37,525 bases of DNA from an uncultured Lachnospiraceae bacterium (lineage in GTDB: Bacteria; Bacillota; Clostridia; Lachnospirales; Lachnospiraceae), in NCBI GenBank assembly GCA_947588005.1, contig CANPYE010000011.1, positions 1 to 37,525 on the forward strand, given 5' to 3'. Both the position numbers and the translations under genes were made by a program. Of the stretch, positions 5,248 through 36,374 are shown one piece after another. A model generated the notes under the pieces. It had not been told where the DNA came from. It saw only the letters and a program-made list of their open reading frames with translations, and searched no databases. Position 1 is the first letter of the stretch. Each line of letters opens with the position of its first letter.

Positions 5248-5258
5248 GAACTTTTTTC

Positions 5259-5282
5259 AAAAAACCGCGCTCCCTACCGCAG
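5259..5282 (-). terminator. weak intrinsic terminator of the signalling cassette
   Basis: On the minus strand, CTGCG and CGCGG pair around an 8-nt loop that contains the adenylate cyclase stop codon, followed directly by TTTTTT. The stem is only five pairs with one G-U, so termination is probably incomplete and some readthrough into the S10 operon is possible. Confidence 0.45.
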
Positions 5283-6329: not shown

Positions 6330-6354
6330 GTCATTCTCCTTTGTCCGCCGAAAA

Positions 6355-7125: not shown

Positions 7126-7168
7126 TGTTCTCCACCTTTCCTTTTCTGTGAAATCATGGCTCGCTGCC

Positions 7169-7968: not shown

Positions 7969-7992
7969 CCGGGGGCGGCAAGCCGCCCCCGG
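7969..7992. terminator. strong GC hairpin between giant gene and hydrolase gene
   Basis: A perfect inverted repeat, CCGGGGGCGGC and GCCGCCCCCGG with a 2-nt centre, fills the gap between the giant gene stop and the MBL ribosome site. In the direction of the genes it is not followed by a U tract (AATAAGGG follows), while the plus strand has TCTTTCTTATTT after it. It may partially terminate, or act as an mRNA-stabilising end, splitting the surface-machine genes from the signalling cassette. Confidence 0.55.
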
Positions 7993-7998
7993 TCTTTC

Positions 7999-10900
7999 TT
8001 ATTTCCTCCGGTATTTCTCCCGTGCGAAGATCACGCCCAGGATTATGAACGCCGCGATCGCTGCCAGCGCCAGCAGAAGGAATCCGTTCTCCTCCCTGTG
8101 GGTCAGGGCGCGACCGATACCGTGGCCGATTTCGAAAGCGGAATCTCCATCCGCATCTGCGGCATCCATAGGCGCCACCGCCTCGTCCATGAGGTTCCTA
8201 TTCTTAGCGGCAAGGACTTCCGTCGTCGTACGCGGCTTGCCGCTCACCAGCGATTCGGTGTCATAGGCGCCGTACTTGCCGGTGACCGGATCGTAGCTTA
8301 CCATCGCTGCGCCCAGCTCCGCCATAAGCTGGCTGGTGTGCAGTTCCTCTGAAACCAGAGCCACCGCTCCGGACAGTTTCTCCGGAGTCCGGGCTGTTTC
8401 ATCCGGATAGTAAGTCTTTCCGTTCACACGGAAGGTGCCCTTCGCTTCGTCGCGTTCAATCCTGGCATAGGCCACAGCCTTAACGCCGTCAGCCGTTTCT
8501 GCGTACAGCTTACCGTCCGCCATATCGATAAATAATGTCTCCGGAAGCTCTGCTGCGCCTTCCGCACCAGCAATACCTGCTTCCGCACCGGCTATCTCGG
8601 AATCCGCGCCCGTGCCGCCCATGATACCTGCAGCCGCAGCGGCCGTCATAAGGCCACTGCCGGACTGACCGGCTGTTTCCGTATTGCTTCCGGCCATGCC
8701 ATTCGCTCCCGTGATACCCTCATCAGAGCCATCTGCTCCCGTGCCGTAAGCTCCGATACCGCTGCCGCCCGCCGCGTCAGAACCATCCGCTCCTGCGCCG
8801 GTACTGCTATCACCGGACTGACCACCTTCTCCGCTGTCTGCCGCTGCACCACCTGCGCCGCCGGGTGCATTGGGATCCGGATTCACACCGCTTCCAAGCT
8901 GGCTGCTGCCGCTTCCGGCAGGACCGCCTGCGCCGTCCTCACCGCCCGCGCCCGCTTCCGCGTCCGCATCGCCGTCAAGGAGTTCACCGGTATTTCCGTC
9001 AGCGCCGCCGGCTCCGTCTTCCATAGACTGCCCGCCGTCTCCGATCGTTCCATCCTCACCGCTGGCTCCGTCCGCTCCTGCAGCTTCACCTTCCGGAAGC
9101 GGATTCTCTGTACTGGCCGTTCCGCCGGCGTTAGTGCCTTTGCCTGCTCCCGTCGCGCTGTTCGCAGAGGAACCGCTTCCGGAAGTCCGTCCCGTTCCGC
9201 CATTCTCCGCGTCAGCATCTCCGCCGGCCCCGGTGCCGAGATTCTCCCCAGCGCCGCCCTTAAGCGACCGGCCGCTTCCATTGCCATCTTCTCCGCCGTA
9301 AAGCTCCATATCTCCGTCATCCTCGAAACTGCCGGAACCGTCGTTCTCTCCAGGATGCAGCTCATCCGACGGATCGCGATAGTTCCTGGCTTCATCAAGC
9401 GCCTCACTGTAGCTCGGGTCATGCGGCACGGTAGTCATCCCCGAAGGTCTGAAGACAGAGGTCAGATAATTCCTGGCGTAATCCAGCAGAGAAATCGTAC
9501 CTGTCGGTACCGGCGACTGGTAAACGACAAAGTTATTGCTGAAGTTGACTACGCATACCTGCCCACTTTCATAACGCAGAACCGCCAAAGCCCTGGTCGT
9601 ATTAAATGTGTTGGACATCTGCTTAATTCCCGTAGCCGCCCATCCATTACACCGAATTGCGGACAGGTAGCTCGTGAGATCTCCCTTGTTGTTCAGAACC
9701 GCGAAATAAGTGATTGGAACTCCCTCATTTCTGGTGCTGGCCAGGAGAACGCTGTCATAAACGCAGTCCTGATAAGGAGAAATAGTATAGAGACTGTCGC
9801 TCAGCATATAAAGCCTCTGATCCAGTTTCTTATCTCCGAACAGTGTGAAGTTATGGAAAACCTTCACATCCATCTTGCTGCTCTGTCCATACTGGTACTT
9901 ATAGAACGGCTGGACAGCCCTCGTTCCTCCTGTAGTAACTTCATCGCCTTCATCCAGCGTCGCGGTTGCCCCGTTCAGCGTATAGATCTTGCCGTCTTCG
10001 GTCAAAGCCTTGCCGCCCCAGAGATGGATCACGCCGGTAAGCTTCTCACCATCCACTTTGACAAAGTCCGTCTCCGTAGCAGTCGTCTGCACATAGGCAC
10101 TGTACTCTGCGCAGCGAAGCATTCCTTTCCCGCCCGCATTTCCTTCAGGCTGTGTATCCCACTGGTCGATAAAATACCAATAATCGTCCTTCACCAGAGT
10201 ATCCCGACACAGCTCCCCAGCCGTAAATGTGGCGCCGTCCACGCTCAGATCAGTCTTAAAATCATAAGTCATCGTAGCCACGCCGTATTTATCCGTAGTA
10301 AGCGAATGACCACCCAACGTCACCTGCTTCGGCTGACCATCCTCGTTCTTCACCTCCACATTCACAGTGTCGATGCCGGAAGCATAGACGACCGCTTCCG
10401 CCAGAGTGACTTCGCCCAGCACAGGCAGTGAGATACCTGCCACATTCGGGTCTTCCTGCGTCCATCCGTCCTTGAACAGACTGAATTCAGGCCAGCGTGC
10501 CAGTTCCAGCAGCTGATTCGACTTCATCGCGCTGTTACCGGGCTCATTGTCGGACGTGTAATACCAGTTATTGTACGCCGGATACGGGAAGTATTTAACA
10601 TCCGATGCGCCGGAAGAATCCTCCGCCATAAACCGCAGATCCCAGTTGCCCTTGAATGCTTCAGTGATTGCTTCCTTCATATCCTGCGTCAATGTAACCG
10701 CGGAGAAGCCCCTCTCCGTATAGAAATCCTTCAATCTGAACTGATCCGCGCTTACCAGCGAAATAACGCCTGCCGGCTTCGCGGCATAGGACGATGCCTC
10801 TGCCGCGTCCGCCATCGCCACTATATCCTTCGCGACCTGTCCGTTGACAGTCGCGTTCTCCCAGATATGAATCTTCGTAAAATCATGGACGGTAAGGTTA

Positions 10901-20694: not shown

Positions 20695-20727
20695 AGGATC
20701 ACCTCCGCAAGCATCAGATTTCTATGT

Positions 20728-21525
20728 TCAGCCCACCGGTTCCAGAAGCTCCGGCCTGCTGAACAAAAGGGTACGCTTGCCCACATTATTCGTCATGGAA
20801 TCATTGATCAGGGCAATTTCATAATCCCCTGTTTCAATCCTTGCCGTCACAGCCCCCATCGGCGGTTCCATAAGAAATTCTTTCGTCCCATAGTCAAATA
20901 CCATCACATTGCCGGTATAAACCGCCTCCACATAGGACAGAGGAGGCAGGAGCAGCTTATAGCCGTTAAAAGTAAGGATCACCGGCTCCATAAAGATATA
21001 CAGATCCCCACCGTCATACAGAAAACCGTTCTCCAGATCCATCGTCTTGCCGTCCCTCTCGACCGTCACGCCGCCAAGGGACGTCAGACGCAGGTCAGTG
21101 AAATGCTCCAGGCGCCCGTGAACCCCGCTCCGGGGAGCATAATAGATCATATCCTGCGTAGTAGTCAGTCCATCCCTCTCCTGGTAATAAATGGGCAGAT
21201 CGTTGGCATCGCGTCTCCCCGAGCTGTCCGTAACCACGGTCGTCCCTTCCGGCGTCCGCGTCAGAACCGCGCCTTCCTCCATCGGGTAGACGCTTCCGCC
21301 GTAATACTGGCAGGGACCGTCTTTTAGTTCATAGCTCATTACTTCTTCGGTAAAGAACTGATTGATGATCACCACCACCGCGACAGCGGCGGCTACCGGG
21401 AAAAGCAGGATCAGCCACTCGCGCCAGCTAAGCCTGCGCCGCCTGGTCTTTGCGGCCAGCCTCCGCAGCTTCGTATCCTTCCGACGCCGGGAACGTCCCG
21501 GCTGCAGGGTCCCACTCGTACTCAA
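20728..21525 (-). CDS. membrane-anchored exported module protein, 265 aa
   Basis: A strongly basic cytosolic N-terminus (KLRRLAAKTRRRRLSW), one membrane helix (about 36-58), then a beta-rich exterior domain (about 65-265). The segment NGFLYDGGDLYIFMEPVIL and the following SYVEAVYTGNVMVFDY align by eye with the membrane-proximal modules of the three large exported proteins of this cluster, so this looks like the stand-alone version. The start is TTG at 21525, supported by GGGGAGGAG 8 nt upstream; no in-frame ATG gives the membrane helix. It overlaps the upstream membrane-protein gene by 98 nt and ends 33 nt before the giant gene. No known family recognised. Confidence 0.8.
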   Translation of the reverse strand: MSTSGTLQPGRSRRRKDTKLRRLAAKTRRRRLSWREWLILLFPVAAAVAVVVIINQFFTEEVMSYELKDGPCQYYGGSVYPMEEGAVLTRTPEGTTVVTDSSGRRDANDLPIYYQERDGLTTTQDMIYYAPRSGVHGRLEHFTDLRLTSLGGVTVERDGKTMDLENGFLYDGGDLYIFMEPVILTFNGYKLLLPPLSYVEAVYTGNVMVFDYGTKEFLMEPPMGAVTARIETGDYEIALINDSMTNNVGKRTLLFSRPELLEPVG

Positions 21526-22057
21526 AATTCATGCTCCTCCCCTCGGAAATATCGTTTAACTCTGTCAGAAAAAGATAGATTCCGAACAGAGCCGTGAAGA
21601 TCGCAATACAGGCATAGATCGTGTATAAATAAGCGTCGGCAGACACATCGCGGATGTACCCGCAGACCATGTTGCAGGACATAAGCGCCGCCAGCTCCAG
21701 CGCGAGCCACAAAAGCCGGCCCGGAATCCGCAGCGCCCCCCGCCGGGAGAAGCACTGCAGCGCGCCCGGAATCACGAAAAGCAGGTAATGCGGCACATTC
21801 ATCTTGCGGAATATGGTCAAAAAACTGATGAGCAGAAGCAGCTTGATCCAGGAACACGCAAGCCGCAGGCAGTCCCACCAGTCCAGTCCCACAAACAGTC
21901 CGATCCAGCGGAAACGCCGCTGGTTCACCCACAGGCCGCTGCCCAGACGCAGAAATAAGGGCAGCAGAAGCGCCGTGGGGACCACGGCCGCCAGCATGTA
22001 AGGCAGAAGCGGCTCCGCCTGAGCCAGAATACGAATCGCCAGCTCCGCAGCGCTCAT
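21428..22057 (-). CDS. polytopic membrane protein of the ATPase cluster, 209 aa
   Basis: Four or five membrane helices are predicted by eye (about 17-37, 62-83, 90-104, 114-134, 142-166), with a hydrophilic tail of about 40 residues. It is the only polytopic membrane protein in the cluster and sits where an Fo component might be expected. I see no resemblance to subunit a: there is no helix with the essential arginine in its family context. Charged residues near or within helices include R65, K72 and E121. It overlaps the epsilon-like gene by ATGA and the 265-aa gene by 98 nt, so coupling is tight. A membrane scaffold or stator substitute is the working guess. Confidence 0.75.
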   Translation of the reverse strand: MSAAELAIRILAQAEPLLPYMLAAVVPTALLLPLFLRLGSGLWVNQRRFRWIGLFVGLDWWDCLRLACSWIKLLLLISFLTIFRKMNVPHYLLFVIPGALQCFSRRGALRIPGRLLWLALELAALMSCNMVCGYIRDVSADAYLYTIYACIAIFTALFGIYLFLTELNDISEGRSMNFEYEWDPAAGTFPASEGYEAAEAGRKDQAAQA

Positions 22058-22410
22058 ACTGTCTCTCCCCCTTCATCGGACCGTTCGGACGCAACCATAG
22101 ACGACGTCTGTTTCTCAAGCAGGAGGGTAAATTCATTGTGCTGATGCTTATAGAAACCTTTCACTCCGTCCAGCTGATATTCCTTATCCTGCGTCAGGAA
22201 GGTGACGCTTCCGTCCACCTGCCCCAGGGCGGGCAGATAATCCTCCATGATCAGCAGGTTATACGCCTTGCTGCGCAGCCGCACGACGCTTACGCCGGTG
22301 ATCAGGCGTAGACCGTTCTCCTCGTCGATCACACGTGCCCGGATGACTCCCGGCCCCGACGTATTCTGCGGCCTGCGCGGCTGCTGTTTTGTCTCTTTTT
22401 TCCCAGCCAT
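22054..22410 (-). CDS. F1 epsilon-like subunit lacking the C-terminal helices
   Basis: The 118-residue product has a basic tail (about 1-20) and then one beta-sandwich. NLLIMEDYLPALGQVDGSV lines up with the epsilon GELGILPGHAPLVTALKPG segment, and VKGFYKHQHNEFTLLLE with the SGGFVEVSNNKVTVLAE strand. The usual C-terminal helical hairpin, which inhibits ATP hydrolysis in bacterial F1, is missing. It lies 10 nt after beta, the normal epsilon position, with AAGGAG upstream. The match is remote and read by eye, but position and fold pattern agree. Confidence 0.75.
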   Translation of the reverse strand: MAGKKETKQQPRRPQNTSGPGVIRARVIDEENGLRLITGVSVVRLRSKAYNLLIMEDYLPALGQVDGSVTFLTQDKEYQLDGVKGFYKHQHNEFTLLLEKQTSSMVASERSDEGGETV

Positions 22411-22420
22411 AGAACGCTCC

Positions 22421-23986
<1,566 letters not shown>

Positions 23987-24000
23987 ACCGCGCCGTTTCG

Positions 24001-24783
24001 TTACGCTTCCTCTAACGACTTCTGCTTCACATAGCTGTCGATGGTCTTCTGGAAGGCCAGCTGGTTCTTCTCCTTCCGGGCCTGCCGCACTTCTTCTTCT
24101 TCCCGCTCATCCAGCTTCTTAAGCGACTCCATCGTGGCGTTCTGGCGCATGATGTTCTCCGCCGCGTAGGCGCTGGCCGCCGCGATCTGGAGCTCATAGA
24201 CCAGATACGAAACCGTCATATCGTTCAGCAGTCCCTCCACATCGCCCTCGATCACGAAATCATCCCACTGGTTCTCCTCCTCCTCGGGAAGGGCCTCCAG
24301 CGGGTAGATGCGCCGGCTCACCTGCTTGATGGAACTCAAATTGTAGTAATGGTTATATACCAGTTCGACCGCCGACCAGCAGCGCTCCTTCACCGCCCGT
24401 TCCAGGTATCCGTATACCCTCTCCGGCTCGGCCTCGTAGTCCTCTCTGGTCAGGAACAGGCTTACCTCCGACGGAGTGCGTACTTTCTTGCCGATCACAA
24501 CCTTCTCGCCGGTCCGGTCCTGATTCAGGACCGACGTGACCGAAGCGTTCACGCCGCCGCAGAAGCCCAGGTCGGACCCCATATAGATCCGCAGGGGCGG
24601 CAGCTTGGGATCCGGCAGCCGGACGCGCTTATCCGCCCGGAGATTCCGGTTGTTCAGCACGATCCGCATCATCGCCGCCAGCTCCTCCTCCATCGCCGCC
24701 AGCTTATCCGCCTTTCTCCGGGAGGCGTCCACCCGGAGCAGGGCGTGGAAATTCATGACCTTCACTACCGCTTTTACGTTCAT
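24001..24783 (-). CDS. F1-type ATPase gamma subunit (rotor shaft)
   Basis: The 260-residue product has the N-terminal helix expected inside the alpha-beta ring. GSDLGFCGGVNAS at 69-81 matches the gamma SDRGLCGGLN motif. The C-terminal helix (about 195-255) contains AAENIMRQNATMESLKKLDE, matching the conserved gamma C-terminus. It is about 25-30 residues shorter than typical bacterial gamma. Its start overlaps the alpha stop by ATGA. It should transmit rotation from beta to the epsilon-like protein and the c-ring. Confidence 0.92.
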   Translation of the reverse strand: MNVKAVVKVMNFHALLRVDASRRKADKLAAMEEELAAMMRIVLNNRNLRADKRVRLPDPKLPPLRIYMGSDLGFCGGVNASVTSVLNQDRTGEKVVIGKKVRTPSEVSLFLTREDYEAEPERVYGYLERAVKERCWSAVELVYNHYYNLSSIKQVSRRIYPLEALPEEEENQWDDFVIEGDVEGLLNDMTVSYLVYELQIAAASAYAAENIMRQNATMESLKKLDEREEEEVRQARKEKNQLAFQKTIDSYVKQKSLEEA

Positions 24784-26108
24784 TCTCCCTCATCCTCATT
24801 CAGCCTGGCTACCATGTCCAGCATGGTCTGACTGGTCCTTACGGCAAATTTATGCTGCTTCAGCATCTCCAGGATCAAAGCGCCGCGCCTCATGCGCTTG
24901 CGCATGGCCTCGCCCATCTCGTCCGCGTTCGCCAGTTCGAAGACCTCTCTCTGCTCCAGGTAACTCAAAAGCTCACGCCGGATCGGCGGGCCGGCCTTCT
25001 TCATAGCCGCTTCCTGCACCGCGCCGCCCAGACGGGACACCGACAGGCCGTAATTAATGGCCGGCTTCTGGCCCTTTTCGAAGTTCTTCGCGGACAGCAC
25101 GATCTGGCCGTCGGTGATGGAAATTATATTCGTAGAAATGAAATCCGTGATATCTCCGCCCTTTGTCTCGCAGATCGGCAGGATCGTGATGGACCCGCCG
25201 TTCATATGCTGGCAGCCTGTCTCCAGCATCCTGGAATGGGTATAGAAAATATCCGGAGGATACGCGTCGCGGCCGGGCGTCTTGCCCATCAGCAGGGCGA
25301 TCTCACGGCATACGTCCGCGTGCCGCTTCAGGTCGTCGATCACGACCAGCGTATCGCGTCCCTGCGCCAGATAGAGCCGCGCGATGGAAAGGGCCACGTA
25401 CGGCGTGGCGCGCAGCACCGGCGCGCAGTCGTCGTTAAAGGCGGCCAGGATCATGGTATACTCCATGGCCCCGCGGCGAAGGAGCTGATTGTAGATGTCC
25501 TTGACCTCTTTCTTGGTCTTGCCGATGGCCACATAGATGCAGATCTCATCCTGTCCCGCCTGGTTGGTGATCGTATCCAGTGCGATCTGGGTCTTGCCGG
25601 TCTTCGCGTCGCCGATGATCAGCTGGCGCTGGCCGCGTCCGATGGGATAGATCAGGTCGATCCCCGTGATTCCCGTTAACAGCGGCCGGTTCACCGACCG
25701 GCGGTCCATGATCGGAATGGGCGGATTCTCGACCGCCACCTCGCGCAGGCCGTCCAGCTTCTTTCCTGCCAGACAGTCCGTGCCGAACATATCCACCACA
25801 TGGCCCAGGGAGCCTTCCGAATAATAGCCGTGGAACTCCTGGCCCGTGGCCACCACGCGGTCGCCTACCTTGATCTTATCCTCTACATGAGTCAGCGCGA
25901 TCAGAACGCTGTCCCGGCGGATGGCGTCCACATAGCCTTCTCCGCTTCTGCCCACCTGCACACGCTCAAAGTAGGCCACATTCTCGAGGCCGGTCGCCTC
26001 TACGATATATTCCCGGACAAGGCGGACCTGACCGGTCGCGTATGTATTTCTTCCGGCCTTGATATCCTCTACCTTCCGCTCCAGGATGCCGCTGATCGTC
26101 TCGTTCAT
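24780..26108 (-). CDS. F1-type ATPase alpha subunit, short
   Basis: The 442-residue product is about 60 residues shorter than usual, mainly through loss of the last part of the C-terminal helical domain. It retains Walker A GDAKTGKT at 166-173 (the alpha-type glutamine is K169), Walker B LVVIDD with D258, and the arginine finger R359 in GLSVSRLG that completes the beta catalytic site. SITDGQI and HSRMLE are also alpha-specific. The start at 26108 overlaps the b-delta stop by ATGA and gives a normal MNETISGIL beginning; a longer frame to 26135 is not needed. Confidence 0.95.
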   Translation of the reverse strand: MNETISGILERKVEDIKAGRNTYATGQVRLVREYIVEATGLENVAYFERVQVGRSGEGYVDAIRRDSVLIALTHVEDKIKVGDRVVATGQEFHGYYSEGSLGHVVDMFGTDCLAGKKLDGLREVAVENPPIPIMDRRSVNRPLLTGITGIDLIYPIGRGQRQLIIGDAKTGKTQIALDTITNQAGQDEICIYVAIGKTKKEVKDIYNQLLRRGAMEYTMILAAFNDDCAPVLRATPYVALSIARLYLAQGRDTLVVIDDLKRHADVCREIALLMGKTPGRDAYPPDIFYTHSRMLETGCQHMNGGSITILPICETKGGDITDFISTNIISITDGQIVLSAKNFEKGQKPAINYGLSVSRLGGAVQEAAMKKAGPPIRRELLSYLEQREVFELANADEMGEAMRKRMRRGALILEMLKQHKFAVRTSQTMLDMVARLNEDEGE

Positions 26109-26899
26109 TCGCCCATCTCCCTCATCTTCACACAATAGTCGTAAAGCATATTATTCGCTTCCACCTGGAAGCCTTCGCATATCTCGTCGTCCACCACGAC
26201 CCGCACCCGGTCGGAATAATTCCCGGCCGCGGCCGTAGGCGGTACCCGCAGGTACACCGGCCCCGGCTCTTCCGCCGCGCGGGACTGCAGGTAATCATAG
26301 AAGCCGATACAGTCGAACTTGCTGTGCAGCGCGTTATAATTTCGCAGAAGCATCCGCTCCTCCGAAGAAAGCACCTGCGAGAGTACGCTCTCCTGTTCCT
26401 CACGGGGCAGCGTCGACAGCCTGTATATCGACTCATAATCAAGCTTGCCTAACAGCTTCCCGGCCGGACCGGCCTGATGAACCGCGCCCGCGGTAAACGC
26501 AGGGAGCACATCCCTGGGCGAGAAGCTGAAATTCTCCCGGATCCTGCGGTAGAGCGTCCCCCCGCCGCTGTCCCGGTACTCCGTACCGCTGATCTGTTCC
26601 ACGACCTTTAAGAAGGCCATGGGCTTTTCTTCTGTGGTCTCCTGCACCGGAGCGGGTATGACCGCCTGCTGCTCCTGCTTTAACTGCTCCAGCTCCGACC
26701 GCGCCTGCTCGATCTCGCTGTCAAGCTCCTTAAGGCGAAGGCTCCGGTCCTCCAGAAGACCGTCATATGTAGACAGAAGCGTCACGCTCCGATCCCGTAC
26801 GCTCTTTCCGACCACACGCGCCGTCCATACCACGCACAGGGTCACGAAGCCGATCAGCACGCCAACCACTACTGCAACTGCCAGCCAATTCGTCAACAT
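26105..26899 (-). CDS. fused b-delta peripheral stalk subunit
   Basis: The 264-residue protein starts with a membrane helix (about 5-27), followed by a charged coiled coil (about 50-80, rich in E, L and Q) as in subunit b. It ends in a helical-plus-beta region whose last 35 residues (VRVVVDDEICEGFQVEANNM then LYDYCVKMRE) resemble the delta C-terminus (DPSLIGGLRIRVGDKVIDGS type). It lies between c and alpha, exactly where b and delta genes lie in atp operons. It should tie F1 to the membrane as stator. The b part is certain in layout; the delta part is a remote match. Confidence 0.75.
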   Translation of the reverse strand: MLTNWLAVAVVVGVLIGFVTLCVVWTARVVGKSVRDRSVTLLSTYDGLLEDRSLRLKELDSEIEQARSELEQLKQEQQAVIPAPVQETTEEKPMAFLKVVEQISGTEYRDSGGGTLYRRIRENFSFSPRDVLPAFTAGAVHQAGPAGKLLGKLDYESIYRLSTLPREEQESVLSQVLSSEERMLLRNYNALHSKFDCIGFYDYLQSRAAEEPGPVYLRVPPTAAAGNYSDRVRVVVDDEICEGFQVEANNMLYDYCVKMREMGE

Positions 26900-26920
26900 C
26901 GTATCAGTCCTTTTCCGTAT

Positions 26921-27193
<273 letters not shown>

Positions 27194-27226
27194 TTATCGG
27201 CTCCGGGTCACGGGGCCGTCTCAATC

Positions 27227-29488
27227 TTAACTGCCTATCGCTGTAACGGTAACGGTACTGCCGTCCGCGTTCCCGCCGTCTGCGGCCGTTTCTGCCGGCT
27301 GCGCCTGCGTCTCGCCGTTTGCGCTGAAAGCGCTGATCGTATTGCTTCCGAATGTCTCGCCGGCTCCGGCCGTCGGCTCCGGCTCAGAAGGCGCGGTGGG
27401 CGCCGCGGTTGTCTCCGGTGCGGCTGTCGTCTCCGGTTCCGAAGCCTGCGTCTCCGCTGCGGCCGTCGTCTCCGGTTCGGGCGCTGCAGTCGTTTCTGCC
27501 GCGGCCGATGTCTCCGGCTCAGAAGGCGCGGTGGGCGCCGCCGTCGTCTCCGGCTCGGATGCCTGTTTCGACGCCTGCATCGCGCTGTTCGATGCCTGCG
27601 CTCCAGATGAAGACACGCTGCTGTTCGTGGCCGCCGCTCTGCTTGCAGCAGACAGGCTCGCACCGGCTGCCAAGCTGGGATCATAGAACGGATTGGAGAT
27701 GCGAGCGGTCACAATTGTTTTATCGCCGGCCATCATCGCAGCCGTGAAATTCGCTTCCTGCTTGATCACTGCGGAGTCTATCGTGAAAATATGCTCAAAT
27801 CTTGAATCAACCGCCCGTCTGACATCATCCTCCTCCAATTTATACGGAACTTGGGAATTCTCTCCAACAGTCAGCGTAATCCGGCTATTATCTGATTCTG
27901 GTATCCAAACATTCATGTTTTCGAGACTGAGCGTCACCTGCACGGAATCAGCGGTCACCCGGCTGATCGTAAGGCTGTTTTGCTGGGTAATCGTTCGTAC
28001 CCTGTAATAATCGTCCAGATAGCGGACATCATCGCCCGTCTCCGGATCAGACGTTATATGCGCCATAACCACATAATACTGGGCGCCCGGCTCCAGATTA
28101 CTGAACGTATAGCTGTTCTCATAGGTAGTCACACTGGTTCGCCGGGTAGCGTCATACGCATTCCAATACTCATCCTTAGCCGCAAGCACTTCATCACTGT
28201 CGTCCTCTCCGTAAATCTGACGGATCGTAAGGCCTTTTCCACCATTAGCGGCTTCCAGATCCGCAACCGCATGAACCTCCAGAAAGACAGTACCCAATTC
28301 TCCAAAAGGATCCACGAAGTAGTAGCCTACGGTCAGACTGGTGCTTGTCTCCGAACGCACAGACTTGAGCAGGACCACCTTTACCGTATCCTTCTCCTCG
28401 CCGACGCCTCCGGTACCGCCGGAACCGCCGTCGCCGCCTTTGCCGCCCTTGCCGCCTGCGCCTCCGGAACCTCCGGAACCGCCCGTGCCGCCCGTGCCGC
28501 CCGTGCCGCCTGCGCCTCCGGTGCCGCCCGTGCCGCCTGCGCCTCCGGTGCCGCCCGTGCCGCCTCTGCCGCCTGCGCCTCCGGTGCCACCCGTACCACC
28601 GGAACCGCCTGTGCCGCCGTCACCGCCGATTCCTCCGGTGCCGCCGTCGCCGCCGATTCCTCCGGTACCGCCCGTGCCGCCGTCGCCGCCAATTCCTCCG
28701 GTGCCGCCCGTGCCGCCCGCGCCGCCCGCGCCGCCGTCACCGCCTGCGCCGCCACGTATCGTCAGATCGATCTCGTCCGGCGTCTGGGGATCGTCGATGG
28801 TTTTATAAATGGCGGAATCATATGTATTCGTACTGCTGCCGCTGATAAGATGCCGCAGATCCAGAGTCTGATCCCCCGCACCCAGCGTCTCCTGCGCGAT
28901 ATCAAAGGTAAGCGAACCGGCCCGTATCGTCGTCGGCTGAGTCGTCTTCAGACTCATGGTACTGGAACAAAGCCGGGCGTTGCCTACCATGTCCAGCACA
29001 ATGTACAGATAGTTCGGCACATGGAACGTCTCCTCACCGTCCGTAATATCAGTATAGACGATCGCATAACGACGATCCGCCAGCTTGAAAAGCGCCGGTT
29101 CGGAGAGATCGCTGTATTCCGTGTCGTCCGTGACCGCTTCCACGCTGCCGTCCGCGCCTACGCGGTACCCGCCGCCGAACACACGAATGCCGGTCCCGGT
29201 AAAAGCCAGCGTATGACCGCTTAAGGGCAGCCCCGTCCCGTTCATCGAGAGATAATATTGATCGGCGGCGCCTCTTGACACAAGAGCGGTCTCGGTAAGC
29301 TCAACCGGCGTATAAGTTCCGTCATAGACCACCGAACCTACCGGCAATTCCACTCCCGGACTGAAGGCGGCGGCCGTATTGCGCGCTACTAAAGCCATCC
29401 CGGTAAAGATGACAAGCAGAACCGCCGCGACAAGTCCAATCGCGATCCGGTTGCCGCGATTCATTTTGCGAGTCGATTTGATCGCCAT
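27227..29488 (-). CDS. exported glycine-rich (GGX) surface protein, 753 aa
   Basis: N-terminal membrane helix (about 12-33), a beta module to residue 245 with LFKLADRRYAIVYTDIT and NYLYIVLDMVGNARLCSS, then 39 uninterrupted GGX triplets (246-362). Next come fibronectin-III-like domains (LEPGAQYYVVMAHITSD) and a Pro/Thr/Ala/Glu/Ser-rich tail with SEPETTAAP-type repeats. No C-terminal anchor or LPXTG is seen, so the N-terminal helix may be an uncleaved anchor. The start at 29488 has AGGAGG upstream. It is second in the cluster, 16 nt after the 2289-residue protein and 57 nt before the c subunit, implying co-transcription with the motor. Confidence 0.88.
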   Translation of the reverse strand: MAIKSTRKMNRGNRIAIGLVAAVLLVIFTGMALVARNTAAAFSPGVELPVGSVVYDGTYTPVELTETALVSRGAADQYYLSMNGTGLPLSGHTLAFTGTGIRVFGGGYRVGADGSVEAVTDDTEYSDLSEPALFKLADRRYAIVYTDITDGEETFHVPNYLYIVLDMVGNARLCSSTMSLKTTQPTTIRAGSLTFDIAQETLGAGDQTLDLRHLISGSSTNTYDSAIYKTIDDPQTPDEIDLTIRGGAGGDGGAGGAGGTGGTGGIGGDGGTGGTGGIGGDGGTGGIGGDGGTGGSGGTGGTGGAGGRGGTGGTGGAGGTGGTGGAGGTGGTGGTGGSGGSGGAGGKGGKGGDGGSGGTGGVGEEKDTVKVVLLKSVRSETSTSLTVGYYFVDPFGELGTVFLEVHAVADLEAANGGKGLTIRQIYGEDDSDEVLAAKDEYWNAYDATRRTSVTTYENSYTFSNLEPGAQYYVVMAHITSDPETGDDVRYLDDYYRVRTITQQNSLTISRVTADSVQVTLSLENMNVWIPESDNSRITLTVGENSQVPYKLEEDDVRRAVDSRFEHIFTIDSAVIKQEANFTAAMMAGDKTIVTARISNPFYDPSLAAGASLSAASRAAATNSSVSSSGAQASNSAMQASKQASEPETTAAPTAPSEPETSAAAETTAAPEPETTAAAETQASEPETTAAPETTAAPTAPSEPEPTAGAGETFGSNTISAFSANGETQAQPAETAADGGNADGSTVTVTAIGS
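28403..28753 (-). repeat. in-frame GGX tandem repeat (39 triplets)
   Basis: A 351-nt tract encodes 39 consecutive Gly-Gly-X triplets, with X mostly Thr, Ala, Asp, Ile or Ser. Such tracts are expected to fold as polyglycine-II helices, giving a rigid stalk. At DNA level it is a GC-rich 9-nt-unit repeat, prone to length variation by slippage. Confidence 0.9.
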
Positions 29489-29504
29489 GTCAATTCCTCC
29501 TCTC

Positions 29505-32500
29505 TTAGCCGACAAACACGAAGGAAAGCGTTCTGTAAGGCGCACCCGAATTGGGGTCTACCCCCTGCTGATAAAGTTTGACTGTTATCTCGTAATAGCC
29601 GTTCATCGGTACGTCATACGGGATTTCGTAGGTATAAACTTCATAGCCGACCGAGTCGTGAGCTATCTTAAACCACTCGTCATCGGTAGACGTCGTTCCC
29701 TCTGCCGATACAATGATCTGTTCTTCCGAAGATCCGGCATAGCCCTCGATACTCCATTGCACATTTTCAATCGCCTGATACCCCTTATCTCCATATTTCT
29801 CATCAGACTTATCCACTACGCCAAAGCTCTCTGACAGTCTGAGCTGCAGCCTGTTTCCGATTCTGGTAAGAGCTACTTTCTTATCATTGATATAGAGACC
29901 GGATTCATCCGTCAGACTCAGTTCCTTACGAGCCAGCCGGAACACCTGTCCCTTCTGCCATATCGCGTCTTTCTTAGGTCTGACTTTTCCAGTCACTTCA
30001 TAATCTTTTTCCCAGAACTGATCCAAAAATTCCGAGAACTTTTGGCCGGCTGCCGCCATAGCTTCTTCATCATTACTCGGGACTTCCTTGCCGAAGAAGT
30101 ACGAGTAATCCTGTCCATCCGTTCCATCGGGCAGGCCTTCGCTCTTCCCGATATGGTACTTGTCTATCACAGCATAAATGTTGATATAATAGGTTTCGTT
30201 CGGGTCTAATTCATAATTTGGCTGGCTTGTCGTATTGTTTTCGTTGCCGCCCTTCAGCGTGAAAGTCTGTCTGGCTTTCGATGCATCAAACACCTGATCA
30301 TCATATATCGTCTCGACCAGGTTGCCATCTGCATCGGTAAAACGTACCGCGAACAGGCTGACTCCCTTCCTTATATCTTTGTGTCCCATGATGGAATAGC
30401 CCACGTCGTTAATGGAAACCGTAAATGTCATGGAATCCTTGGTCGCCCCTGTGGCATAGATCAGCGCGCCGTAATTGCTCACAGACGGGATCTGGACAGC
30501 GTACACCTGACGCCCCATCTCCGTCTCTCCCTCATATGCCCTCATGAGCAGATAAACTCTCGTACCGGGCTTTAATTCGCTGCGCAGGCTGGACGGAGTC
30601 ATATCGATTTTGACCCTGTTGTTGCTGCCGGTAAAGCTGTTTGACGGAGCAGTGAGCATCCCGTTATCGCGCATATCCTTGTCATTGTAAATAACTAAAC
30701 TCGGATCCGGATCCGTATATTCATTTGTCGAAACCGAACTTCTCAGCAATGTATAAGTCATTCGTACACCGGAAGTACGGTTCAGGGTGAAGAAAAGCTC
30801 CATGTACTTGTCAAAATACCCGTTGTTGTTGTAAACCAGCCCCTTCTCGGAATTAATCACTATGCCAGCCGCCGTCTGGAACGGATAAACTGCTTTCTTA
30901 GCGGTAGCCCGATCCACCAGAACCATAATCTCATCCGGGGAATCCTTCTTCATCATGTAAAAGACTACCCAATAGTCCCCTCCGGCCTGAAGCAGCAGCT
31001 CATCGCCGTCTTTAGGCCTGATTATACCGGATCCGGCATTCTCCGTTCTCTTTTCATCTTCTATCGGGTAACCCCTTCTTGCGTTATCTTCTCCCTTTTC
31101 AAGACGAAGCCGGATCTCTGAGTTTTTGATGGCATTTTCCTTGTTTTTCGGGGTCGGATCTTCAGCAAAGCGATTCGCAAGCGGCTCGCGATCGAACAGC
31201 AGCGCATGAACTACATATTCATCCGTGTCCGTTTCGTCCTTATGCCATTTTTCCGTGCCCGCCTGCTCCTGGTTGTAGACCTGGAAACCGAACACATCCA
31301 CCTGATTGGCGCCGGTCACAAGTTCTCTCGTCAGCCGCATAGTCGGAACAACGTGATTCAGCGTACATTTATTGTCATCATTCGTAAATTTAAGCTCATC
31401 ATATATACCCACGCCCTTTGGAACCACGCAGTCCTTAATTTCTTCCAGCCTGCTGGAAGTGCTCTGCGCCACGCCGTTATTGGTAGGATAGATCCATCTG
31501 CCCGTGGTCCAGTCGCTGCTTCCCTGAATCGTCAGGTTCGCAGCGTACGCTTCATGCTTTACATCCGGGTAAAGCAGATGACGGATGTCCTTAGCCTTTA
31601 TATAAGGATCCGATGTCTGTTTCGCCATAGCGCCATAGGTACCGTTATTGATGTTGCCGCCCACGATATAGCCGCCCAGGCGATAGCTTCCGTCCTGCTG
31701 GCTGATCGTCTGCAGAGCAAAATTGCCGTTCGGATCTTCAATCAGGTTCCAGCCCTGTTCACCGGTATCGTAGTAAATCTGCGCTTCTACGGCGAATGTC
31801 TTCCCTATGAAATCCGTATGCAGATCTCCGGTAGACAACCGGGCATAATACCCCACATCCACTTCATAACTCATGGGCAGATAAATCCGCTGATCGTGTT
31901 CAAGCTCGGACGTCTCCTCCGTAACGGTCTTGATATACAACTCCATCGCGTACGCACGGTTGCCCAGATACAAAGCGGATCGCTCCTGACTGTTCGTCCT
32001 TAAGATAAAATCGATGTAATTCTGCTCAAGATGCTCATCCATAGTGACGTAAACCGGTTGTATCTGGCCAACAGAGATGCTTCTGCCGCTAAAGTAGCTT
32101 CCATAAGCCCGGTCGACCGGGATATGGCAAAGATAAATCCCTTCTTCCCCGTTCTCGCTGTCCGCATCTCCCATATTGAAGGCACTCAAGACGTCGCTGT
32201 ATGACACATCATACAGACTGACATTCACCTTAGGTTCCACTGTGTTAACCCCGCTGGACGAGACAGTATACGGAAGGGCCACAGAATACCAGTCCATACC
32301 GTCGTTGACATTGCTCTCGACACTTCGCGCAATCTCAAACAGGGGCGTCGTCTCTTTTCTGCCACCTGATGTATATTCGATCTGGGTAGCCGTCTCTCCT
32401 GTCGATGCGATCTCTCTGATCGTGTCATCCAGGTCGCGCCATGTATAGTGAAGCTCCAGTATGCCGGTATCCTCCATCATATCGCCGCCCCAGCTTGCAT

Positions 32501-35500
32501 CGGCAGTTTTATACACATAAGTGTAAAATTCGGGAGCCAGCTTGGGCGCTTCCTGCATGCCGGAATTAAGGATATAAGCCACCGTTTTGCCAATCGATAC
32601 ACCATTTTCCGTACCGGCGCCGTAAGAATTCTTAAAACTGGCATAGGTGCTTTCCGGATAGTAGGGATAGGTCGAAGTTGTGCTGCCGGCAGCTTCGCTC
32701 CACTCTACCGTATAGGCAAAGACATAGCGATAACCGCGGCCCATGCCTTTCGGTATGCCGCTCGTCTTGCTCGCGTCGCCGGCGTAGTAGCAGTAATAGC
32801 CATTATAGAAATTATTATCTTCACTCACCGGCTTCTGTTCAGGCCCTCCGCCAAACAGAATCGCGACCTTGGGCGCAGTGTTGCTTCCCGGGGCGAAATC
32901 AATTGTAATCGGCTGTGTAACAACGAGATCAAGCCTATCATCATAATGGACTTGAGATACCGGATCTTTTTCTTCCTTCATCAGCGCGGTATAGAAATTG
33001 TTATACTCAAACGCATAGTAGGTCACGCTTTGTGCCAGACGCTGCGAGTTATCGTAAGTAGATTCCAGCCGGTATCCCACGATCACGTCATCCGGTATTC
33101 TCGGATCAACCGTTCCGCCGTAATCCTTCGCTTCGCCATTCAGAATCGGGATCGCCTTAACGCCATTGTTGGGATCGGTCATCAGGTCGGGCGGCTTGGC
33201 CGCGCCGGTAATCACCTCGGTTCTGGTGCTGACACTGACGTCGAATTCATTCACATAACCCATTTTCATACGGCTGGTCGAGTCCGTCACTTTCGTGACT
33301 TCCAGCGTATAAGCAATTCCGGAGTCCAGACGCAGGTTAAAATCGGTTTCATTAACAGTTACACCGTCATCACCATACAGATCCGCCGCTTGCTTGCCTC
33401 CCGGGATATTGCTCAGCGTAATGCCTGCCAGATAGGTCCTTCCTGGGCCGGTGCCGCGGTAGATCGACAGACTCACATCGCCATTCCGGAGCTGCTCCAG
33501 GGCATGCTCTTTCCTTCTTCTGGTCATTTCCTCGTCTGTAACCGAGTCGTCATCATGCAGCTTCAGTTTTATATTACACGTTACACCCTCGCCGGAGATG
33601 GAGTTCTGTTCCCATATCGCGTCCACGACATACGTCTCAAACGTCCGGAAACTGGCGGTCCCGATGGTACGGCGAACAAAACCGTTACCGTCGTTCAGAT
33701 TAATGTAGCCGCTGACCACGATCGAATAATTGGTATTCTTAAAAAGATGGGTCAGGTCCAAATGCACCTTTATCTGATTGGTTACAGATTCATCCAGTGT
33801 GGCCGTGATAATCTCCTCACCGCTGTCATCATGTTTGATATCCTGTTTACTGCTGCCGATCACGACCTCCCTGTCATAGATCTGGTCGGCATATATCTGC
33901 ACGGTCAGCTCCTGGCCGTCTTTGATCTCCATGCTGGATCCCTGCTTGCTCATATCGATGATGAGATCCCCTTTCATGGTGTCATAATCTGTACCGTATT
34001 CAACCTTTTCCAGCTTCAGCAGGGGCAGAGAATCACCCATCGACATGACCTCGGCACTTTGTCCCAGGTCGTAGTAAACATCCTTCTCATTATCATTAAA
34101 TACCAGTTCAACTTTGAACCTGTAATTCACATTGGAAGGCAGGAAGAAGCTCACCGGTCCGGTCTCGTTGGGCAGAGCCGTCTTCTGCGCGGCCTCTACC
34201 CAAGCCCCGTCCTTATATTCCATAGCCGTATAGACATATCGGACTACGCCTCCGTCTGAATCAGTAACAGCAGGCCGGTTTACCTCAAAAGCGCCGGTAA
34301 CGCGATTGAAGCTGGCCGTCGGAACCGGTTTATTGTTCTCCTGTCCCGGTTCCCACCATGTAGGCGGAGTACGCAGAGTAAGCCCATCCAATTCCTGATT
34401 GGTGAGAATACTCATCGTTTCATTATCGCCGCTTGTACTCACAAACACCCTGACCACATAATTGGTATCCGGAGAGAGCGGCTTTGTGGAACTCCTTGTC
34501 AAAGCCCCTACCTGATCGCCGAATGTCAGGCTCAGGTTATACGCATTCCCGTCCTTCGGTACTTTTTGTGTCCCAATGGCGTCTAAGTAAGAGATGTCGA
34601 CGTCGCCGGGGGTTTGGATATAGTCCAGAGTATATCTGGCCTCATAATCTACGCCCGGCGAACTGAGCGAAGCAGAAGACGTAACCTTTCTGTTCTGCGC
34701 CGGAGTAAGCAGATAGAGCTGCACCACTTTTACAGAATCCTGATACGCCTCCGCCACATTGACGCCGACCGTAAGGGTAGACGTACCGGCAGATTCATAG
34801 TTAAGATAAATACCTGTAGAATCCGTGTAGAAGAAACGACTGACAAATTCTCTGGAATAGAGCATTCCAGACATGTTGTAGTACGCCACCACAGAAATGC
34901 GGTAACTGGTGTCAGGCGTAAGCACATCGGTATTATAATTCCCCTCTTCACCTTCCATCGCCATGAAGTAAGCAGGAGTAGCATCGAATGAATTCGGAGC
35001 AAAGGGGCCCGCTGTTCCCTCGTTATAACCTCCCGAAAGACTAAGGCACTGAACCTGCTCGCCGGTCTCCACATTATAAATGGTAACCTTGGGATTATAC
35101 TTTTCACTATCGGTTCCGACCATATTGCTTATATCCAGCAGACCTTGCTCATCATCCACCTGAATCGCGCCCCTTAAGCCGGTAGCGGTAACCTGCCAGT
35201 CCACGAAGGACATCACAGGCAGGGCCACGTTCGTCGAGCTCTGGATCGTCGCGTCGTTGCCCTTATTGCCGGTGTAGCCGTCGCTGCCGCTCTTGCCGTT
35301 GCCGCCATTGGCTCCCGACGTGCCGGAATCGCCGTTTGCGCCGGAGATGCCGGACGTACCGGAACCGCCCTGGCGGCCATTCGCACCGATCTGGCCGTTC
35401 GCGCCGGCCTGACCGGTCGCACCGGTCTGTCCGGTCGCACCGGTACTGCCGGAGGAACCGCTGCTGCCCTGATCGCCTGCTTCGCCGGCCGCACCCTGTT

Positions 35501-36374
35501 CACCGGCCGCGCCCTGCTCGCCGCGCACGCCCTGCTGGCCGTTCTCGCCCTGGTCGCCGTTCTCGCCGGCTTCGCCGTCCACGCCGTCCTCGCCGTCTAT
35601 GGTGTCGATATTCAGTTCCGGCACGATCTGCCGGCGGGTTTCATTCTCTGCGAGAACGATGCTGTCGTCCGCGCTCACGGAGAGCTTGGCTAAGGACATC
35701 TTATGAGTGCCGTCGTCGATAAGCTGGGTCACAGGCGTGACTTTAACCCCGCCCTGCGTCTCGATGTAGCAGTCGGGGGAGATCGTCGTCCACAGGTTCT
35801 CCGCTGTGAGCAGCTGAACGATATTGTCCTCGGTGACGGTCACCTGCACATAGTCGCCCACGGGTCTCACATCATCGTCGGAGAAATGGATCGTCAGTTC
35901 CGGGGAACGAATGATATACTTGTCGTCGGACAGCTTCCAGAGGTTCTCTCCGAAATTAACCGTGCCGGCGTTCGTCTCTGCCGTGTAGACTCCTCCGGAC
36001 CCGGAGATCGGCAGCTCGGCGGTGATATAATAGTTATTAATGAAATTCTCGGACAGATCGTTGAAATCGAGCAGAATACTGTCGCTGAGCGCGAAAAAGC
36101 TTCCGTCGTCCAGACGCGCGAAGCTCTCGCTCCGTACAACGGCCTTCTCCCCGTCGCTGTCCCGGAAACTTACCTGCCCGGCCCTGGAGATCTGATACGT
36201 CTCCTGGCCTGTGAAGCCTACCTGCTTTACTTCTCCCCCATCCCCGCGGAGTACGTATCCGTCCATAGGAAAGGACGGCCGGGAGCTGACCGACCTCCAC
36301 ACTCCAAAGGCGGTGAAGCCAACCAGCGCGGTCAGGCATAATGCCATCACTGATATGACAATTTTCTTCCCCAT
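29505..36374 (-). CDS. giant exported collagen-like surface protein, 2289 aa
   Basis: N-terminal membrane helix (about 5-26), a beta module to residue 260 with LWKLSDDKYIIRSPELTI and DYVQVTVTEDNIVQLLTAEN, then 38 perfect GXY collagen-like triplets (261-374). A long array of fibronectin-III-like domains runs to the C-terminus (LTPDTSYRISVVAYYN, LSPDTNYVVRVFVS, LFKNTNYSIVVSGY, LKPGTRVYLLMRAY). No C-terminal membrane helix or sortase signal is seen. It is the first gene of the cluster, behind about 400 nt of upstream sequence, with AGGAG before the ATG. Probably a cell-surface fibre held in the membrane by its N-terminus; function unknown. Confidence 0.9.
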   Translation of the reverse strand: MGKKIVISVMALCLTALVGFTAFGVWRSVSSRPSFPMDGYVLRGDGGEVKQVGFTGQETYQISRAGQVSFRDSDGEKAVVRSESFARLDDGSFFALSDSILLDFNDLSENFINNYYITAELPISGSGGVYTAETNAGTVNFGENLWKLSDDKYIIRSPELTIHFSDDDVRPVGDYVQVTVTEDNIVQLLTAENLWTTISPDCYIETQGGVKVTPVTQLIDDGTHKMSLAKLSVSADDSIVLAENETRRQIVPELNIDTIDGEDGVDGEAGENGDQGENGQQGVRGEQGAAGEQGAAGEAGDQGSSGSSGSTGATGQTGATGQAGANGQIGANGRQGGSGTSGISGANGDSGTSGANGGNGKSGSDGYTGNKGNDATIQSSTNVALPVMSFVDWQVTATGLRGAIQVDDEQGLLDISNMVGTDSEKYNPKVTIYNVETGEQVQCLSLSGGYNEGTAGPFAPNSFDATPAYFMAMEGEEGNYNTDVLTPDTSYRISVVAYYNMSGMLYSREFVSRFFYTDSTGIYLNYESAGTSTLTVGVNVAEAYQDSVKVVQLYLLTPAQNRKVTSSASLSSPGVDYEARYTLDYIQTPGDVDISYLDAIGTQKVPKDGNAYNLSLTFGDQVGALTRSSTKPLSPDTNYVVRVFVSTSGDNETMSILTNQELDGLTLRTPPTWWEPGQENNKPVPTASFNRVTGAFEVNRPAVTDSDGGVVRYVYTAMEYKDGAWVEAAQKTALPNETGPVSFFLPSNVNYRFKVELVFNDNEKDVYYDLGQSAEVMSMGDSLPLLKLEKVEYGTDYDTMKGDLIIDMSKQGSSMEIKDGQELTVQIYADQIYDREVVIGSSKQDIKHDDSGEEIITATLDESVTNQIKVHLDLTHLFKNTNYSIVVSGYINLNDGNGFVRRTIGTASFRTFETYVVDAIWEQNSISGEGVTCNIKLKLHDDDSVTDEEMTRRRKEHALEQLRNGDVSLSIYRGTGPGRTYLAGITLSNIPGGKQAADLYGDDGVTVNETDFNLRLDSGIAYTLEVTKVTDSTSRMKMGYVNEFDVSVSTRTEVITGAAKPPDLMTDPNNGVKAIPILNGEAKDYGGTVDPRIPDDVIVGYRLESTYDNSQRLAQSVTYYAFEYNNFYTALMKEEKDPVSQVHYDDRLDLVVTQPITIDFAPGSNTAPKVAILFGGGPEQKPVSEDNNFYNGYYCYYAGDASKTSGIPKGMGRGYRYVFAYTVEWSEAAGSTTSTYPYYPESTYASFKNSYGAGTENGVSIGKTVAYILNSGMQEAPKLAPEFYTYVYKTADASWGGDMMEDTGILELHYTWRDLDDTIREIASTGETATQIEYTSGGRKETTPLFEIARSVESNVNDGMDWYSVALPYTVSSSGVNTVEPKVNVSLYDVSYSDVLSAFNMGDADSENGEEGIYLCHIPVDRAYGSYFSGRSISVGQIQPVYVTMDEHLEQNYIDFILRTNSQERSALYLGNRAYAMELYIKTVTEETSELEHDQRIYLPMSYEVDVGYYARLSTGDLHTDFIGKTFAVEAQIYYDTGEQGWNLIEDPNGNFALQTISQQDGSYRLGGYIVGGNINNGTYGAMAKQTSDPYIKAKDIRHLLYPDVKHEAYAANLTIQGSSDWTTGRWIYPTNNGVAQSTSSRLEEIKDCVVPKGVGIYDELKFTNDDNKCTLNHVVPTMRLTRELVTGANQVDVFGFQVYNQEQAGTEKWHKDETDTDEYVVHALLFDREPLANRFAEDPTPKNKENAIKNSEIRLRLEKGEDNARRGYPIEDEKRTENAGSGIIRPKDGDELLLQAGGDYWVVFYMMKKDSPDEIMVLVDRATAKKAVYPFQTAAGIVINSEKGLVYNNNGYFDKYMELFFTLNRTSGVRMTYTLLRSSVSTNEYTDPDPSLVIYNDKDMRDNGMLTAPSNSFTGSNNRVKIDMTPSSLRSELKPGTRVYLLMRAYEGETEMGRQVYAVQIPSVSNYGALIYATGATKDSMTFTVSINDVGYSIMGHKDIRKGVSLFAVRFTDADGNLVETIYDDQVFDASKARQTFTLKGGNENNTTSQPNYELDPNETYYINIYAVIDKYHIGKSEGLPDGTDGQDYSYFFGKEVPSNDEEAMAAAGQKFSEFLDQFWEKDYEVTGKVRPKKDAIWQKGQVFRLARKELSLTDESGLYINDKKVALTRIGNRLQLRLSESFGVVDKSDEKYGDKGYQAIENVQWSIEGYAGSSEEQIIVSAEGTTSTDDEWFKIAHDSVGYEVYTYEIPYDVPMNGYYEITVKLYQQGVDPNSGAPYRTLSFVFVG
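35253..35594 (-). repeat. collagen-like GXY repeat (38 triplets)
   Basis: 342 nt encode 38 uninterrupted Gly-X-Y triplets, beginning GEDGVDGEAGENGDQ and ending GSDGYTGNKGND. It is rich in charged triplets at the N-terminal end and in Ala/Ser/Thr later. Expected to form a trimeric collagen-like stalk, which would make the protein a trimer. Confidence 0.9.

Follow-up and report, generated by a model that had tools for sequence, protein, structure and literature searches.

A metagenome-assembled genome (MAG; 3.05 Mb, 81% complete) of an uncultured Lachnospiraceae bacterium encodes an F1-type rotary ATPase within a cassette that also specifies four exported proteins, two of them giant, and a c subunit devoid of the ion-binding acid. 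The stretch analysed, hereafter the window, comprises 37,525 nt and forms part of contig C11 (CANPYE010000011.1, assembly GCA_947588005.1). The cassette occupies positions 36374-7999 of the minus strand as a single, tightly packed run of eleven genes. We consider it probable that ATP hydrolysis by this enzyme drives surface structures mechanically, by way of a c-ring that is blind to ions. F-type rotary ATPases are textbook ion machines, and to our knowledge an F-type c-ring serving as a mechanical gear only would be unlike any known rotary ATPase. If the reading is true, the rotor is re-usable as a mechanical drive in ordinary walled bacteria, and it becomes testable whether an ion-blind c-ring turns and what it moves. 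It would also bear on a large, unexplained surface system of gut-associated bacteria, isolate genomes included.

The initial annotation of the window, made from its letters alone, had proposed that the F1 ATPase and the surface proteins share one operon and that ATP hydrolysis is coupled to surface structures. The genes it named do lie on the minus strand at 7999-36374, spaced by -98 to +59 nt from the 2289-aa gene to the 4231-aa gene; it counted them as ten, and its own list held the eleven that are present. Coupling is the best reading of the data, because surface genes usually accompany the ATPase, the host has a separate canonical synthase and the c subunit encoded in the operon departs from the canonical type, and it remains something that we infer. 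The strongest evidence for it is the acid-less c subunit, which the initial annotation did not mention.

The c subunit lacks the ion-binding acid

The 82-aa product of 26921..27169 (-) matches the Pfam model of the c subunit at 28.9 bits (cut-off 24); it retains the docking loop GRNPETK and carries Ala in place of the ion-binding carboxylate. We aligned 72 such sequences (the window and 71 related loci, forming 62 groups at 97% alpha identity) with four canonical c subunits from the same host family. All four canonical sequences have E at the ion-binding position, where none of the 72 cassette sequences has an acid (T in 31, A in 28, S in 6, V in 6 and M in 1). Two further c subunits, recovered from the genomes of loci L054 (Ala) and L053 (Ser), are also acid-less, bringing the total to 74 of 74. 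A Gly-rich helix 1 and the polar loop GRNPET are conserved throughout the alignment. The canonical counterpart of this loop is the ARQPE loop, the docking site of gamma and epsilon. The ratio of non-synonymous to synonymous substitution rates (dN/dS) lies between 0.000 and 0.073 in the 12 of 15 close pairs for which it was measurable, indicating strong purifying selection; these ratios are rough, several dS values exceeding 1 and one pair being near-identical. Because no member has the acid and dN/dS is this low, its absence from c reflects neither misannotation nor decay.

Two other accounts were tried and rejected. A decayed ATP synthase does not fit a cassette in which constraint is strongest on c, alpha and beta, with c at the rough ratios just given, and a canonical synthase supplied with parts from elsewhere does not fit a c subunit without the acid.

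Judged from the sequences, the motor very probably cannot pump ions, since its c lacks the acid, no cassette gene was recognised as subunit a and a canonical F1Fo is encoded separately in the window's genome. The alternative of a divergent synthase or pump, drawing subunit a from elsewhere or using the neighbouring membrane protein m209 (21428..22057 (-), 4-5 transmembrane helices) in its place, would explain why genes for c, alpha, gamma, beta, a probable b-delta and an epsilon-like subunit are all there, and why the small, polytopic m209 is their neighbour in every locus with room (74 of 74). We nevertheless hold it to be very unlikely. The ion-site acid is absent in 74 of 74 c subunits, and m209 has no detectable relation to subunit a: hhalign gives 1%, a PDB profile search yields no a subunit, and the invariant Arg is absent, the best basic column holding R in 32 and K in 22 of 62 sequences. 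Of the 80 related loci, 50 were put to a search for subunit a; 49 of them lie in 48 host genomes, and subunit a was found in 34 of these; 2 of the other 14 have a V-type I subunit, and neither protein was found in 12 of the 48 (1.0-1.9 Mb, completeness unstated).

A canonical c subunit in one host genome (locus L180, G044:C21) has the loop GRNPGAKSD, near the cassette's GRNPETKSD, and retains its acid (VAET). The likeness of the two loops is a hint that the ion-blind c may derive from a c of that kind.

Catalytic core and probable stalk

Pfam identifies alpha (24780..26135 (-); 451 aa, or 442 aa from ATG, with a short C-terminal domain) through ATP-synt_ab at 230.6 bits, beta (22421..23941 (-); 506 aa, with an N-terminal extension of ~50 aa if the first ATG is used) at 210 bits, and gamma (24001..24783 (-); 260 aa, with the family signature VKVMNFH) at 71.2 bits against a cut-off of 39.9. 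The catalytic residues are intact, as the initial annotation had stated. The window has GGAGVGKT and GERSREG in the catalytic beta subunit and SVSRLGG in alpha, and both the P-loop and GER motif of beta and the Arg-finger motif of alpha occur in 74 of the 74 members that have separate alpha and beta open reading frames (ORFs); a narrower P-loop/GER pattern missed 3 and 8 members, all of them variants. Three Bacilli-type loci (L076:7327-9999, L092:3938-6889 and L112:6727-9999) have an alpha ORF of 890-1090 aa with a big C-terminal extension and no downstream giant.

The product of 26105..26899 (-) is probably a b-delta fusion forming the peripheral stalk, a proposal that leans on its predicted fold. 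Pfam gives the window protein no match to the b or delta families. Its AlphaFold2 model (m972f725e4b03; mean predicted local distance difference test score (pLDDT) 88.4, predicted template-modelling score (pTM) 0.54) comprises a single long N-terminal membrane/stalk helix of 78 residues, a helical bundle and a C-terminal beta part. When this model is compared with the PDB, the first 36 matches are all ATP synthase entries, the best with an E-value of 6.8e-3 (probability 0.93) and none below 0.001; from titles and chain letters, we take the matched chains to be delta, OSCP or b-delta. At the sequence level, Pfam OSCP is found in 5 of 56 b-delta members (best E 0.0035), with unrelated families scoring better (DUF4446, 14 members, 5.3e-4); hhalign returns 32.7% for delta and 0.5% for b, and the PDB profile matches are headed by influenza coiled coils.

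The epsilon-like subunit (22054..22410 (-), 118 aa) presents individually weak, consistent matches: seven of seven PDB profile matches are ATP synthase epsilon-type chains, all at E-values of 0.26-0.93. A single Pfam match was obtained among 39 members, an unrelated family had a better Pfam E-value than DE_N, and hhalign against four canonical epsilons was negative (0.2%). The subunit identities first proposed are therefore upheld by Pfam for alpha, beta, gamma and c, and the evidence for epsilon and b-delta is weaker than for those four.

Exported proteins and their common module

The ATPase genes are flanked by genes for exported proteins. Upstream lie G2289 (29505..36374 (-)), a 2289-aa protein with an N-terminal membrane helix, a juxtamembrane module, a collagen-like segment (Pfam Collagen, 1.2e-14) and Ig/fn3-like repeats recognised by eye, and p772 (27227..29545 (-); 772 aa from GTG, 753 aa from ATG at 29488), with a membrane helix, the same module, a (GGX)n rod and a sub-threshold fn3 match. 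Downstream of m209 are t265 (20728..21525 (-)), which has a basic N-terminus, one membrane helix (34-62) and an all-beta ectodomain corresponding to the module, and G4231 (7999..20694 (-)), a 4231-aa protein with a hydrophobic helix at each end, a t265-related module at its N-terminus and one sub-threshold GLUG match. The t265 model (pLDDT 91.2, pTM 0.81) shows the membrane helix followed by the all-beta ectodomain.

Profile comparison relates these ectodomains to one another. With hhalign, t265 matches p772 at 91% (172 columns) and G2289 at 94% (165 columns), p772 matches G2289 at 96% (157 columns), and t265 matches G4231 at 86.5% over 115 ectodomain columns; seven control pairs, each involving b-delta, canonical a, canonical epsilon or m209, scored 0.1-25%. 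By these profiles the exported proteins have a common membrane-proximal module, the case being thinner for G4231. The polytopic m209 is tied to the module in 11 of 71 loci, where m209 and t265 form a single ORF. These fusions, of ~400 aa, occur in L065, L090, L087, L081, L072, L075, L080, L069, L077, L052 and L099, and behind many of them lies a single-helix protein of ~450-550 aa that is weakly t265-like (G196, G373).

Among relatives, the hydrophobic helix at both ends recurs in seven of seven complete G4231-like proteins, as in the window, and Gly-Gly-X rods in 39 of 61 p772-like proteins (the 753-aa class). Of 22 complete upstream giants, 9 contain a collagen-like run of at least 15 triplets (4 of 17 from loci, window included, and 5 of 5 further giants from longer stretches), and 13, from Bacilli-type and other MAGs, lack one; this count covers complete giants, most locus ORFs being cut by the 10-kb flank, and the giant of G1062, taken to be the record of L055, is not among the five. 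The collagen-like stretch and the Gly-Gly-X rods are thus common and do not define the family, and the GLUG feature of the initial annotation appears as a sub-threshold match only. A plasmid search with t265 gave no match.

The presence of giant cargo in the same operon also suits an energised export or assembly machine, in which the F1 motor would push, fold or anchor the giants during secretion and would not move them later. F1 relatives include the export ATPases of flagella and type III secretion, and weaker matches to FliI and SctN models were obtained. The best matches are nevertheless F1 alpha and beta, and export ATPases are not known to have an alpha/beta division, c-ring or delta stalk. 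The N-termini of the exported proteins are ordinary and signal-anchor-like, and four Bacilli-type loci (L076, L092, L112 and L122) retain the motor without a downstream giant. We judge this machine unlikely and favour a motor that acts on surface proteins mechanically.

Conservation and distribution of the cassette

A scan of 84,980 species genomes with a two-sequence gamma profile returned 128 stretches encoding relatives, of which the best 80 were studied. Among these 80 are Lachnospiraceae, Oscillospiraceae, Clostridiales Family XIII, Coriobacteriales, Bacilli and Erysipelotrichaceae MAGs; the family is not confined to Clostridia. Records not marked as MAGs include Chakrabartyella piscis BP5G (a complete chromosome), Lachnospiraceae bacterium G11, Clostridia bacterium MS499-83 and Bifidobacterium colobi LC6. 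The cassette is uncommon and unevenly spread: at an E-value of 1e-30 it was detected in 6 of 397 genomes of a family sample, 3 of 392 of an order sample and 3 of 398 of a phylum sample. The window's genome is part of all three counts, and the samples overlap in some genomes.

Parts were counted with iterated profiles over the 80 loci and the window, and within the 80 only where the contig has room. On this basis b-delta was found in 74 of 74, epsilon in 75 of 75, m209 in 74 of 74, c in 70 of 73, t265 in 67 of 71 and the p772 module in 58 of 60. Alpha (72/75) and beta (72/77) fall short through an assignment artefact at contig ends in seven of eight cases, the eighth being a partial beta ORF in L063. 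The c gene was missed in the L053, L054 and L057 loci and found in the genomes of the first two; for L054, contig number and coordinates are consistent with a rearrangement that placed c at the opposite end of the cluster. In these three rearranged loci the downstream giant is of the 2289 type.

Gene content and gene order were observed directly. All nine recognised parts are present in 59 loci, window included, and 58 of them keep an identical order, the exception being L122. Such agreement is beyond chance; the loci are partly redundant, 74 alphas forming 65 groups at 97% identity and the 59 loci falling in 52. Both L122 and L124, from Bacilli/Tenericutes MAGs, are rearranged with gamma after m209, followed in L124 by several small single-helix proteins. 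Surface genes usually accompany the ATPase, as the initial annotation had supposed, and the contrary pattern, of clusters mostly devoid of them, did not appear. Upstream, a script finds an ORF of 1000 aa or more on the same strand in 51 of 57 loci with room, or 54 of 57 when L105, L117 and L121 (1716-1741 aa) are added; downstream, one is present in 53 of 57. The neighbourhoods of the cassette are unlike; the one in genome G044 adjoins CRISPR-cas genes, recognised by eye.

Comparison with known rotary ATPases

The systems nearest in working are the Type 2 and Type 3 F1-like ATPases of Mycoplasma. According to PMC12994834, MIB-MIP cannot function without the Type 3 F1-like X0 ATPase, which is recovered together with MIB and MIP under cross-linking; both this paper and PMC3369863 describe such re-use of F1 as specific to mycoplasmas. 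By their account, Type 3 resembles the window cassette in having an extra F1 (alpha, beta, gamma and epsilon) beside a canonical F1Fo and encoded with exported surface proteins, and its surface function depends on ATP hydrolysis. Its X0 consists of a 12-transmembrane protein, a small cytosolic protein and an 87-kDa protein with two transmembrane segments, without c, b or delta. The window cassette, in contrast, has c, a probable b-delta, m209, t265 and the giants, and the 12-transmembrane protein is absent from its operon. The Type 2 (G1) gliding motor of Mycoplasma mobile is alike in that an F1 motor is proposed to work mechanically on surface proteins. Our search of the open-licence PMC literature, preprints excepted, found no description of such a system outside mycoplasmas.

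Scores against the dedicated NCBIfam models fall below their cut-offs, both for Type 3 (MSC_0619/MSC_0618; alpha 295.8 of 520 bits, beta 386.3 of 570) and for Type 2 gliding (MMOB1660/MMOB1670; alpha 369.7 of 600 bits, beta 361.3 of 850). A tree of alpha subunits built by a quick method from 57 rows (24 family members, 14 canonical, 9 Type 3 and 10 other alphas from the class of L124's host) places the window family in one clade and Type 3 in another, each with a support of 100 by the Shimodaira-Hasegawa-like approximate likelihood ratio test; the tree has no outgroup, so that it does not tell which clade is sister to which. On sequence grounds the window family falls outside the mycoplasma types: its scores stay below cut-off, its alphas form a clade apart from Type 3, and its profiles for membrane and surface parts match nothing in one complete X0 cluster. 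In the same tree L091, from a Coriobacteriales MAG, pairs with L108, from a Family XIII MAG, with a support of 100, which suggests that the cassette has been transferred between phyla.

Canonical F1Fo and the cassette have in common alpha, beta, gamma, c, probable b-delta and epsilon homologues and the catalytic residues. They differ in that the cassette's c lacks the acid, no subunit a is recognised, and the order c-bdelta-alpha-gamma-beta-epsilon is followed by membrane and surface genes. On account of c and a, the family also stands outside F1Fo. Belonging neither there nor with the mycoplasma types, the cassette would be a further variant of repurposed F1, distinguished by its membrane sector. 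We go further only tentatively, and with slightly more doubt than confidence, in suggesting that it represents a third class of repurposed F-type rotary ATPase, in which ion transport has been lost, c-ring and stator have been kept, and the ring is a pure torque transmitter that moves surface proteins of up to ~4300 residues in walled gut bacteria of at least two phyla.

Proposed mechanism

In the mechanism that we favour, alpha3-beta3 would hydrolyse ATP and turn gamma-epsilon, which would dock on the c-ring through the conserved GRNPETK loop, while the b-delta fusion would hold F1 stationary. The ring would carry no ions, because every c examined is without the acid and no subunit a was recognised in the cassette, and would act as a torque plate in the membrane. 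Torque would pass to the membrane helices of m209, t265, p772, G2289 and G4231, with their related juxtamembrane modules probably packed against one another outside the ring, and the long surface rods would be turned, pulled or reset where they touch host, mucus or other cells. By likeness to MIB-MIP, the rods could possibly shed or move bound ligands, or serve adhesion, gliding or mucus penetration. We infer the rotation, the complex, the transmission of force and the task outside the cell, as well as the ring itself.

Several points weigh against this mechanism. That c forms a ring is an assumption, and in the c of L076 the residue immediately preceding the canonical site is acidic, the sole acid in helix 2 among the 72 sequences. 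The structure matches of b-delta are low, with TM-scores of at most 0.27 normalised by query, and m209 could be an unrecognised stator or channel. Within the exported set, the p772-G4231 match (73%) includes the membrane helix, the G2289-G4231 match (78.5%) covers just 46 columns around it, and the common module has no confident fold match in the PDB or among viral models. As for the precedent, the window-family profiles (c, b-delta, m209, t265 and the N-modules) match nothing in one complete X0 cluster (L183; three other loci retrieved did not display the full order), and the Mycoplasma systems thus seem, by profile, to have only the F1 subunits in common with the window family.

Host ATP synthase and soundness of the contig

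The window's genome has a separate canonical F1Fo, in line with the expectation that the operon's enzyme is not the only one in its host. Contig C57 of the MAG carries a 464-aa beta, the end of alpha and genes with the length and place of gamma and epsilon, and is cut by the contig end; subunit a (PF00119) was found in this genome only on C210, again cut by the contig end, and not in the operon. In C. piscis (G745) a canonical atp operon lies ~6 kb before the cassette, which spans about 643.8-671.6 kb of the chromosome, and the c of that operon retains the Glu (ALAES). A possible third rotary ATPase in the window's MAG is indicated by an ATP-synt_ab match (G000:C58:2791-3414) in a 598-aa open frame of V/A-type length, although the bin yielded no V-type I subunit.

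DNA identity to same-genus genomes ends at 5258-5271 (~5262) in eight of eight, and the cassette is therefore accessory DNA beside the S10 ribosomal region or, less likely, an assembly join. The site is variable in the genus, several genomes having a 445-452-aa gene there instead. A chimeric or misbinned contig, for which the host link would be wrong, could account for this break, for the lack of any alpha match better than canonical alphas give in 25 same-genus genomes (0/25), and for a tetranucleotide correlation of just 0.59 between the ribosomal part of the window and C57 of the same bin. We regard it as highly improbable, given that ribosomal protein L4 beside the cassette occurs once in the bin and shares 99-100% identity with four genomes of the genus, and that the operon's tetranucleotides correlate at 0.82-0.88 with C57 as against 0.53-0.60 with the closest-relative locus, L045. 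The family is in any case independent of this contig, the cassette being carried by a complete chromosome and by isolate records.

Neighbouring genes

Three possible accessory genes follow the cassette on the same strand. A metallo-beta-lactamase-fold protein (7169..7951 (-)) is encoded 47 nt behind G4231, followed by a GAF-domain protein (6355..7245 (-)) and a response regulator fused to a class III nucleotide cyclase domain (5274..6443 (-)); beyond them lie the ribosomal protein genes of the S10 region. In C. piscis, relatives of the first two (46% and 52% identity) occupy the same place behind the giant, and all three are possible regulators. They would fit a mechanosensor or switch working in reverse, in which a pull on the rods turns the ring and alters F1 ATPase activity, to be read by the GAF and cyclase genes; the conserved pair and the adjoining response regulator-cyclase fusion speak for it. 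No metallo-beta-lactamase or GAF relatives were found behind the cassette in G1062, G966, G352, G196 and G044, where sequence is partial, so that these genes do not count as core, and full catalytic conservation suits a driver better. A sensor therefore strikes us as very improbable, and the ATP-driven motor is still preferred. Genome G044 has a metallo-beta-lactamase relative (34%) ~25 kb and a cyclase relative ~17 kb upstream of its cassette on the same contig.

A promoter scan upstream of the operon gave no signal above shuffles. Between the 4231-aa gene and the metallo-beta-lactamase gene, at 7969-7992 of the window, lies a perfect 10-bp G+C-rich hairpin, which has no T-run on the operon strand and a T-rich tail on the other.

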